Translations under genes and position numbers: made by a program | NCBI RefSeq assembly: GCF_014695385.1 | Contig: NZ_JACJOD010000013.1 | Location: 372,001-436,000, forward strand | Direction of reading: 5' to 3' | From: Trichocoleus sp. FACHB-46 | GTDB lineage: Bacteria > Cyanobacteriota > Cyanobacteriia > FACHB-46 | Length of the DNA stretch: 64,000 nt | The notes under the pieces: generated by a model | The model's input: only the letters and a program-made list of their open reading frames with translations | Database searches by the model: none | Told to the model about the DNA's origin: nothing | Part shown: piece after piece, positions 8,927 to 61,161 of the stretch | How the letters are laid out: each line of letters begins with the position of its first letter | How positions within the stretch are numbered: the stretch's first letter is position 1

Positions 8927-9808
8927 TTGAAGCAATGGAGTTTTGATTGGCGCAATCTGCTTTGGTGTTGTCTCAGCATCTTGATCATGCTGTGGCAACC
9001 GATCGCGCAAGCAGGGCCTTTAGGCGATCGCATCGCAGCTTTTCCACAGTGGCAGGAACAACCTCCCGTTCAAGCGGCTGAGGGAGATCTGGTTTACCCG
9101 GAATGGTTTGCGGGCAACTGGGATCTGACTAGCACACTGGTAGATTTAGTGGCACCTTTAGCTCCAGAGGTGATCAGCCCAGGTTTTGAGAGCAATCGTC
9201 AGTATTTGCAACAACCCGTGCAATTTCGGGTGCGATTTGCGCCACCAGCAACATCCAATAAACCTAAGTCTTTGCTCCTGCCTACGACCAGACCTAAAAA
9301 TGGAGTTGGAGTGGTGGCCGATCGCGCCTTTAATGGCTTGAATATTGCTAAAGCTTATTTGGGCGATCGCGCTGTTCTAGCAGTCAAAGCAGACTCCAGT
9401 TCTCCTAATCGTCAAATCACGTTGTTACGCGGCGATCGCCAATTGGTTTCGATTGTGACTGGACGAGCGACTGAAACTCCCCAGGCTGATCAATTTATTA
9501 CGACTGAGGTGTTTCAACAGCAATTTCGCGGGGCACCGCAGCTTTACTTCAATCAAGTCGAGACAACTACCTCTTATCAAAAATCTGCTCAAAAATCTGC
9601 TCAAAAATCTGCCGATGCTGAAGCCCCAGCGATCGTAGCTGACCAGATCACCGCTGTTTATCTTTCTCCCCAAGACCCTGATTATTTCAAGGCTGGAGGA
9701 TTAAGCAATCGTCGTCCCGTTGCGTTATATCGTTATCGATTAGACTTCTTTCCGGCTAGCTCAGCCGCGAGTGTCATAGGCACTTCAACGGTAAAGACGG
9801 TGCGGTGA
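8927..9808 (+). CDS. exported cyanobacterial protein, DUF6816-like
   Basis: 293 residues beginning at a TTG codon with AGGAG 10 nt upstream. Residues 1-30 form a signal peptide (basic start, CCLSILIMLW core, cleavage likely after PIAQA), so the product should act in the thylakoid lumen or periplasm. The mature start GPLGDRIAAFPQW and the motif YPEWFAGNWDLTSTLVD recall a family found in cyanobacteria and plastids that I know as DUF6816; function unknown. Residues around 215-228 contain an imperfect triplet repeat (QKSAQKSAQKSAD), probably a flexible insert. Its last 76 nt overlap the end of the convergent kinase gene. Confidence 0.75.
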   Translation: MKQWSFDWRNLLWCCLSILIMLWQPIAQAGPLGDRIAAFPQWQEQPPVQAAEGDLVYPEWFAGNWDLTSTLVDLVAPLAPEVISPGFESNRQYLQQPVQFRVRFAPPATSNKPKSLLLPTTRPKNGVGVVADRAFNGLNIAKAYLGDRAVLAVKADSSSPNRQITLLRGDRQLVSIVTGRATETPQADQFITTEVFQQQFRGAPQLYFNQVETTTSYQKSAQKSAQKSADAEAPAIVADQITAVYLSPQDPDYFKAGGLSNRRPVALYRYRLDFFPASSAASVIGTSTVKTVR

Positions 9809-58309: not shown

Positions 58310-59917
58310 GTGACTCTACAGACTGAACCAGTGATTCAAGCTGAAGATTTAAAACAGCTGGATCGACAAATTATTGTCATTTTAGACTTCGGCTCTCAGT
58401 ACTCAGAGCTGATTGCTCGTCGGATTCGCGAAACTCAGGTTTACTCTGAGGTCATCTCTTATCGCACCACGGCGGAACAGCTACGGCAGCTCAACCCCAA
58501 AGGCATTATTCTCTCTGGCGGTCCCAGCTCGGTCTATGACCAGGGCGCTCCTCAGTGTGATCCAGAGATTTGGCAGTTGGGCATTCCAGTTCTGGGAGTC
58601 TGCTATGGCATGCAGTTGATGGTGCAACAGCTCGGTGGCGAAGTGGAGCGGGCCGATCGCGGGGAATATGGCAAAGCAGCTCTCGTGATTGATGATCCCA
58701 CTGACTTGCTCACCAATGTGGACGATGGCACCACGATGTGGATGAGTCATGGCGACTCGGTGACGAAGTTACCAGATGGCTTTGAATTGCTGGCGCACAC
58801 AGATAATACTTCCTGTGCGGCGATCGCTCACCACGAGAGGAAGTTGTATGGCGTGCAATTCCACCCAGAGGTGGTGCATTCCCTCGGCGGCATGCCGTTG
58901 ATTCGCAACTTTGTTTATCACATCTGCCAAGCAGAACCGACTTGGACCACCGCTGCTTTCGTCGAACAATCGATTCGAGAAATTCGGGCCAAGGTTGGTG
59001 ATAAGCGAGTGTTGCTGGCTCTCTCTGGTGGCGTTGACTCTTCGACGTTAGCTTTCTTGATGCACCGAGCCATCGGCGATCAGCTCACTTGTATGTTTAT
59101 CGATCAAGGTTTCATGCGCAAGTATGAGCCAGAACGATTGGTGAAGCTGTTTGAGGAGCAATTCCACATCAATGTTGCCTACGTCAATGCCCGCGAGCGC
59201 TTCTTAGCCGCAGTGGATGGAATTACCGATCCTGAAGAAAAGCGCAAGCGGATTGGTCATGAGTTCATCCGCGTATTTGAAGAAGAATCCAGACGGCTAG
59301 GGCCTTTCGACTACTTAGCTCAGGGTACTCTCTACCCGGATGTGATTGAGTCTGCGGATACTAATGTTGATCCAAAGACAGGCGAACGGGTAGCAGTCAA
59401 AATCAAGAGTCATCACAACGTCGGTGGCTTACCTAAAGACTTGTGCTTCAAGCTGGTTGAACCCCTCCGCAAATTGTTTAAGGACGAAGTGCGGAAGTTG
59501 GGCCGCTCCGTTGGTTTACCTGAAGAAATTGTGCAACGGCATCCCTTTCCTGGGCCTGGTCTCGCCATCCGCATCCTAGGAGAAATCACCGAAGAGCGCT
59601 TAGAAATTCTCCGTGACGCAGATTTAATTGTGCGTCAAGAAATTAATCGGCGCGGCATTTACCACGATTTCTGGCAAGCCTTTGCTGTATTGCTGCCAGT
59701 TCGCAGTGTCGGTGTCATGGGTGACCAAAGAACCTACGCCTACCCCATTGTCCTGCGATTGGTTTCCAGCGAAGATGGCATGACCGCAGACTGGTCTCGC
59801 GTTCCCTACGATCTGCTAGAAACCATTTCCAATCGGATTGTGAACGAGGTACCTGGTGTCAATCGGGTAGTTTATGACATTACCTCTAAGCCCCCCGGCA
59901 CAATCGAGTGGGAATAG
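58310..59917 (+). CDS. guaA: GMP synthase, glutamine-hydrolysing
   Basis: 535 residues; converts XMP to GMP. Start GTG at 58310. N-terminal class I amidotransferase: [36 protein letters not shown] (nucleophilic Cys) and [12 protein letters not shown]. Then the ATP-pyrophosphatase P-loop [17 protein letters not shown] and the C-terminal dimerisation domain with [15 protein letters not shown] and KPPGTIEWE. Length and layout match family. Downstream there is no ordinary terminator; a hairpin and the DnaA-box cluster follow instead. Confidence 0.97.
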
Positions 59918-60039: not shown

Positions 60040-60072
60040 GGTGCTGCTATTAAAGAAATAAATAGCGGCACC
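60040..60072. other. 12-bp hairpin downstream of guaA
   Basis: GGTGCTGCTATT (60040-60051) pairs with AATAGCGGCACC (60061-60072) over a 9-nt loop, with one T-G pair. No T tract follows. It borders the DnaA-box cluster. Confidence 0.65.
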
Positions 60073-60091
60073 ATAACTCTTATAAATTTTT

Positions 60092-60182
60092 TGTGGAAAA
60101 CAGGGCTAAATCTGTGGAAAAACCCCTTGATCTGTGGAAAACTATAGTCTTTATTAACTGTTTATTAAAAATTAATTAAAAG
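60092..60182 (+). promoter_or_regulatory. cluster of three DnaA-box-like 9-mers next to an A/T-rich tract
   Basis: TGTGGAAAA occurs exactly at 60092-60100, 60113-60121 and 60133-60141, all in the same orientation, start-to-start 21 and 20 nt (about two helical turns). The reverse complement TTTTCCACA is the DnaA box I know from cyanobacterial origins. The following 60142-60182 is roughly 85% A/T, with TTATTA/TTAATTAA runs. No gene lies between guaA and the reverse-strand CDF gene. Interpretation as an origin or DnaA-regulated site is inference. Confidence 0.6.
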
Positions 60183-60255
60183 CTTCCATGGGAAATCTAA
60201 CTCTTGCCTTTCCTCATGAGATGCAGATTTTTGTTTTTAAGCACTAAGTCGGTAA

Positions 60256-61161
60256 CTAAGACAAATCATTTTCGTAACTAATTTGGTTAGACATGTAGGC
60301 AGGAGGCTCCACGTGAATATTAATTCGCGCTGGACCATATCGTTCTTCGAGTCGTGCTTCTAGGGCTTCGGTAATTTGGTGGGCGGTTTCAACATCCGCA
60401 GCATCCACAATCAAATGCATTTCGATGAAGACTTGCCGACCTAAGACTCCTCTTGAAGCAATACTGTGACAGTTGATCACGCCAGGAACTTGAGCTGCGA
60501 TCGCGTGAATGGCTTCTGGAGCGATCGCCATTTCATCCACTAGCCAAGGCAAGTTAGACCGCAACACTGACCAACCACTACTAAATACTAGAACCGCTAC
60601 TGGAAACGACAACACCAAGTCTAGCCATTGCAGATTCCAAGCCCAAATCCCGACCAAACCAGCCAGTACACTAATCGTTACCCAAACATCGCTCATGGTG
60701 TGTTGGGCATCAGCAATCAGAATGGGGCTGTTGACTCGTTGCCCGACTGCCCGCTCATAAAAAGTGACAAAAATATTGATCCCTAATACCGCCAGCAAGA
60801 GCCACAACTCGGAGGCTGAGATTGTGACGGGTTGACTACCTTGGAGTAATCGTTCGGCCGTTCCTTGTAAAATCTCGAAGCAAGCGATCCCCAAAAAAGC
60901 TGCAATTCCTAAAGCACCCACAGCTTCAAATTTCTGATGACCATAGGGATGATCGCGATCGGGTTCGGGAGAGGAAAAACGACTAGCTACTAATCCCAAA
61001 ACATTGTTGACGCTGTCTGTGACGCTATGCAAAGCATCAGCCAGCAAGCTCAGCGAACCTGTGGACCATCCCACCACTGCCTTTAAGAGCATCACAAATA
61101 GATTGAGCACCAAGGTAATGAGCAATACCTTGCGAACTTGTGAACGGTTGTCAACGACCAT
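60256..61161 (-). CDS. cation diffusion facilitator metal exporter
   Basis: 301 residues, six membrane helices. Metal-site motifs are His45-x3-Asp49 (ADALHSVTDSVNN) in helix 2 and His154-x3-Asp158 (ADAQHTMSDVW) in helix 5. In the CDF family HxxxD pairs like these are typical of Zn2+-type exporters, so Zn2+ (or Co2+) efflux is likely; iron or manganese are less so. The C-terminal cytoplasmic domain (about 210-290, VFIEMHLIVDAADVETAHQITEALEARLEE) is the usual dimerising ferredoxin-like fold. A conserved SSPEPDRDHPYGHQKFE loop is present. Divergent from the next small gene. Confidence 0.92.
   Translation of the reverse strand: MVVDNRSQVRKVLLITLVLNLFVMLLKAVVGWSTGSLSLLADALHSVTDSVNNVLGLVASRFSSPEPDRDHPYGHQKFEAVGALGIAAFLGIACFEILQGTAERLLQGSQPVTISASELWLLLAVLGINIFVTFYERAVGQRVNSPILIADAQHTMSDVWVTISVLAGLVGIWAWNLQWLDLVLSFPVAVLVFSSGWSVLRSNLPWLVDEMAIAPEAIHAIAAQVPGVINCHSIASRGVLGRQVFIEMHLIVDAADVETAHQITEALEARLEERYGPARINIHVEPPAYMSNQISYENDLS

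Follow-up and report, generated by a model that had tools for sequence, protein, structure and literature searches.

A phased triplet of DnaA boxes between guaA and a cation-efflux gene is a candidate DnaA control site outside oriC in cyanobacteria

The effects of the chromosomal loci datA and DARS depend on their position on the chromosome. To our knowledge, little is known of the ways in which cyanobacteria keep DnaA in check, and a conserved non-coding DnaA site would offer a direct handle on them. In Escherichia coli, datA is a non-coding locus that lies apart from oriC, on the downstream side of a transcription unit, and contains a few DnaA boxes essential to it, and it requires an IHF site besides those boxes (PMC10380432). 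DARS1 and DARS2 of the same species each have a three-box core (I–III) in a non-coding region, and DARS2 needs IHF and Fis. The DnaA-box clusters (DBCs) of Bacillus subtilis are intergenic groups of consensus boxes away from oriC and, according to the account of Okumura 2012 given in PMC5295017, removal of all six advances initiation. The layout of a DnaA box with DnaA-trios has been described for bacterial origins, with Synechococcus elongatus among the species tested (PMC8287927). Cyanobacterial origins, as in S. elongatus and Cyanothece 51142, have the gene order dnaA-oriC-dnaN. Domain IV of Cyanothece 51142 DnaA bound cyanobacterial DnaA boxes co-operatively, with clear binding to boxes in pairs but not to a lone box (PMC4674748).

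We examined a 64-kb stretch, here called the window, of a 6.56-Mb draft genome (G000; contig 13, 372001–436000). In it, the 338-bp gap that separates the convergent guaA and CDF genes houses three exact copies of TGTGGAAAA on the plus strand, equal to TTTTCCACA on the minus strand, at steps of 21 and 20 bp (Table 1), bearing out a sequence-only reading of this DNA that had described three 9-mers in one orientation with a 20–21-nt period. The boxes at the oriC of G000 have the same motif; the 9-mer is the cyanobacterial DnaA box, and we infer that DnaA binds at this locus, the guaA site or site A.

Table 1. Positions of features in and around the guaA–CDF gap (window coordinates) and of site B
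Feature	Position	Strand	Evidence
guaA (GMP synthase), convergent neighbour	58310–59917	+	Pfam GATase and GMP_synt_C
12-bp hairpin between guaA and the boxes	60040–60072	+	Fold computation, z −4.2
Conserved block (boxes, spacers and A/T tract)	60074–60182	.	103/109 columns invariant, three congeners
Putative DnaA box 3, exact TTTTCCACA	60092–60100	−	Motif match; invariant in G001 and G002
Putative DnaA box 2, exact TTTTCCACA	60113–60121	−	21 bp from box 3; conserved in congeners
Putative DnaA box 1, exact TTTTCCACA	60133–60141	−	20 bp from box 2; conserved in congeners
A/T-rich tract, 41 bp, 85% A+T, CDF side	60142–60182	.	Composition; kept in three congeners
CDF cation-efflux gene, convergent neighbour	60256–61161	−	Pfam Cation_efflux and ZT_dimer
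Site B, ~150-bp non-coding element, 5–6 phased putative DnaA boxes	G000 contig 14, 280654–280801 (L007:6654–6804)	−	Alignment and sequence model

Like the B. subtilis clusters as summarised in that account, the guaA site is an intergenic cluster of consensus boxes away from oriC; unlike them, it is a fixed triple with 20–22-bp phasing and conserved neighbours, and it is found in Cyanobacteria. It resembles datA in its few boxes, its non-coding location away from oriC and the transcription unit upstream of it, whereas its boxes are evenly spaced on one strand and its distance from oriC is not conserved. As to a datA-like location near oriC, the site lies 0.57–0.58 Mb from oriC in two complete genomes (G002 and G013) and over 1.3 Mb away in two others (~1.4 Mb in G016 and ~2.9 Mb in G101). 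These complete genomes rule out a fixed distance of site A to oriC and therefore weaken any mechanism that relies on early duplication of the site. The likeness to DARS1 and DARS2 is one of box count and non-coding location, and the likeness to cyanobacterial oriC is that of the 9-mer itself, whereas the inverted arms, ten or so boxes, GC spacer and DnaA-trios seen at oriC are all lacking at the guaA site. Box clusters outside oriC are already known as such; what is new here, as far as we have found, is the architecture and its phylum-level conservation in cyanobacteria, and our search of the open-licence literature turned up no description of such clusters in this phylum.

Within the genus, which we sampled with three genomes (G000, G001 and G002), the block comprising boxes, spacers and A/T tract is 94% invariant, with all 27 box positions identical, compared to 134 of 244 columns in the remaining intergenic region and 60 of 100 (60%) guaA third codon positions; within the genus, constraint thus extends beyond the boxes to the spacers and the A/T tract. 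This tract corresponds to the A/T-rich stretch of ~40 bp that had been pointed out from the sequence, and although kept in the three congeners it is not recognisable in other genera. Exact boxes number 64 across the G000 genome, against 38 for the reversed pattern, and close same-strand pairs occur at only three places, which are the same in all three genus genomes: oriC, the guaA site and a position near ispE (site B). Searches for Rfam families and tRNA genes at sites A and B returned nothing relevant.

Site A recurs in distant cyanobacterial families, beside guaA and/or the same CDF gene. A scan of 386 genomes from across the phylum recovered the exact triple with 10–13-bp gaps in 34, compared with one match for the reversed pattern, and among the genomes of 49 relatives 46 had exact box pairs, the control giving one match in all. 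When about eighty places with pairs or triples were sorted by their neighbouring genes, one class, apart from oriC, was the guaA/CDF site. Read along the boxes, the CDF gene is upstream and co-oriented in 22/22 loci and guaA is downstream and opposed in 20/21, the sole exception (L131) being a member of site B by its flanking sequence. The site is retained with CDF after guaA has gone and with guaA after CDF has gone, as in the single-neighbour loci that are still boxed (CDF alone or guaA alone: L107, L111–L115, L125, L149; L174, L175, L178, L185). Successive steps in the class are mostly of 20 or 21 and then of 21 or 22 bp. The letters of the spacers are wholly different between families, so that conservation at this level lies in the boxes and their phasing. 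We also drew a set of 80 loci chosen by guaA alone, allowing the triple at most two mismatches in all; 14 had it downstream on the same strand, with none for either the reversed or the opposite-strand control. Presence beside guaA requires at least 11 changes on the GuaA tree, partly because site A also sits beside CDF elsewhere. At six Oscillatoriales-like loci (L134, L138, L140, L146, L167 and L168), an AAAnTTAAGrrAAAGrTTAAG-like sequence follows the last box of site A.

Judged from sequence comparison, the guaA site is probably a DnaA-binding control locus outside oriC, of the datA/DARS/DBC kind. As in that class, it has several consensus boxes in non-coding DNA outside oriC, and they are conserved in relatives. 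A secondary, datA-like DnaA-binding site was among the options raised by the sequence-only reading, and as a class assignment it is supported because boxes and phasing are conserved both in congeners and across families. With three high-affinity boxes on one strand and two helical turns from each to the next, three DnaA molecules would line up head-to-tail on one face of the DNA, where their assembly may be co-operative. Such a complex could hold a share of the cell's DnaA, possibly altering its nucleotide state, and would in this way set the amount of initiation-competent DnaA that stays available to oriC. It might simply titrate DnaA, the role put forward for the B. subtilis clusters, or act by catalysis, either of ATP hydrolysis as at datA or of nucleotide exchange as at DARS. 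An NCBIfam scan of G000 for Hda gave no match above the curated cut-off.

The distribution of site A bears on this reading in both directions. In Nostocales, the convergent guaA–CDF pair was without boxes in 11/11 loci, whereas boxes were present in 8/11 other loci with the pair (Fisher p = 0.001, not corrected for descent). All Nostocales rows fall in one clade without site A on the GuaA tree (support 99), so the pattern reflects at most one loss and the p value overstates the case. Several Nostocales genomes retain boxes at oriC (L156–L162). Replication without DnaA has been reported for Nostoc 7120, Synechocystis 6803 and Synechococcus 7002 (PMC7198777), and the presence pattern fits site A mattering where DnaA drives initiation, a correlation broken by Microcoleus loci, in which guaA–CDF synteny is kept and the boxes are absent. 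The Nostocales contrast counts as one event, and the patchy distribution of site A weighs against a control site, as does its variable distance to oriC beside the position effects of datA and DARS. The contrast between Nostocales and other cyanobacteria would allow the question of how lineages came to be independent of DnaA to be tested at specific sites.

DnaA at the guaA site might instead act on transcription, either as a roadblock that parts the converging guaA and CDF transcripts or by regulating an unseen RNA. The location exactly between two convergent genes, in constant orientation to both, would suit such a role, as would the standing of DnaA as a known transcription factor, with guaB listed among the genes it represses in E. 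coli (PMC12371093). However, the boxes persist where CDF or guaA alone remains, they are missing in Nostocales that keep the convergent pair, a hairpin is already present after guaA, and promoter-like matches are at chance level. A roadblock is possible, and it explains the single-neighbour persistence and the Nostocales loss less well than a control site does; action on transcription appears somewhat unlikely to us. The more specific suggestion of a DnaA-regulated promoter, also made from the sequence, is not supported, because rather than lying upstream of or in a promoter the site is flanked by two 3′ ends, a convergent placement that argues against a promoter, and the single promoter-like match is within chance expectation.

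The phased boxes could also serve chromosome architecture, segregation or recombination, or be the target of another protein in place of DnaA. The sequence itself does not dictate which protein binds, and the nearly constant spacing of two helical turns is compatible with such functions, but the motif is the same as that of the boxes in the genome's own oriC, and we consider these roles improbable.

The sequence-only reading had also raised an unannotated origin, for which the DnaA boxes adjoining A/T-rich DNA, kept in congeners, might speak. As it had noted, dnaA and dnaN are missing from the window; in G000 they are neighbours on contig 23, and between them lies a separate, normal oriC with 10 boxes in about 195 bp (C23:7715–7910), eight exact and two with one mismatch, in inverted arms. 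There a box pair is followed by GGCC and then by CTACTACTACTACTT trios, which matches the box-and-trio layout of bacterial origins, and the region also holds a 21-bp head-to-tail box pair. This cluster, and not the three boxes beside guaA, is the densest. The best trio score is 14 at the G000 oriC versus 2 at the guaA site, and DnaA-trios sought at sites A and B were absent as a class, with two site B loci scoring 7–8. Of the classical origin layout that had been proposed, phased boxes beside an A/T tract do stand, but the tract lies on the wrong side: it is 5′ of the boxes along TTTTCCACA, whereas the unwinding side of the G000 oriC, with its trios, is 3′ of TTTTCCACA. For the complete congener G002 (5.458 Mb), we further computed cumulative GC skew from samples covering 40 × 20 kb. 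Its minimum, at ~2.61–2.63 Mb, coincides with dnaN (2.6324 Mb) and the oriC boxes, and the guaA site, at 3.212 Mb, is about 0.58 Mb away. The origin reading is rejected because of the 10-box cluster at dnaA–dnaN and the skew minimum found there in G002, to which the lack of trios at the guaA site is added; a role as a main or secondary origin is highly improbable. Of the findings that the sequence-only reading had named as speaking against an origin, the skew minimum and the denser cluster elsewhere were both seen, whereas the three 9-mers, contrary to the third, are conserved in relatives.

A chance cluster or neutral repeat, favoured by the shortness of the motif only, is a negligible prospect given the conservation across families, the clean controls and 300 dinucleotide shuffles of the window, which held a mean of 0.72 exact boxes each and yielded one pair and not a single triple within 60 bp, in line with the sequence-only view that the triple is not there by chance.

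Site B, near ispE, has the order TTTGCAATTCTTAT, boxes about 11 and 22 bp apart, and a conserved end CTGGGGATTTT in an alignment of 21 loci, and its flanks are conserved even more strongly than those of site A. When a sequence-only model of site B was run on the 145 genomes of the class, 131 gave a match at E ≤ 0.001; the weaker matches may be oriC or other arrays. The model found site B in most of the cyanobacterial families sampled. Near full-length matches occur in many family groups; one of these groups (f7) we take to be Nostocaceae, and the named Nostocales loci L154 and L155 have site B. With site B, control of DnaA through several sites becomes more likely. We tentatively raise the possibility of a two-site DnaA control in cyanobacteria, in which site A (guaA/CDF) and the near phylum-wide site B (ispE/DUF3082/hemJ), as phased head-to-tail arrays unrelated in sequence to E. 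coli datA or DARS, would set the timing of initiation, with A lost in Nostocales, one member of which reportedly replicates without DnaA.

Site B is often followed, after some 500–900 bp, by hemJ or by an unrelated protoporphyrinogen oxidase (PPO) gene, both named by eye, and at several loci a small DUF2811 gene stands in between. A PPO-type oxidase gene is found downstream at L106, L122, L137, L150, L151 and L164, and a HemJ gene at L145, L172, L179, L184, L187, L191, L196, L198, L202 and L204, the two non-homologous types alternating beside site B as if the gene had been replaced in situ. This DUF2811 gene follows site B at ~240–480 bp at L135, L139, L142, L150, L172, L199 and L204, and site B could be the regulatory region of this gene. 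Genome G393 has two DnaA-box arrays 7 kb apart (L187:4078 and L187:10942), one of them preceding a gene judged by eye to be PD-(D/E)XK-like and the other preceding DUF2811–hemJ.

The 12-bp hairpin noticed on the guaA side is real, with 12 pairs including one T·G and a computed energy of −18.8 kcal/mol. Its pairing is maintained across congeners through T·G↔T–A switches, and in G001 the terminal pair has changed from G–C to A–T with pairing maintained. A T-run adjoining the hairpin was looked for and none was found. The hairpin probably forms the 3′ end of the guaA transcript or serves as its terminator, and it is separate from the DnaA site. Elsewhere in the window, a 12-bp unit, TCAAAAATCTGC, stands in three tandem copies at 9577–9612 and is the only other source of 9-mers tripled within 60 bp.
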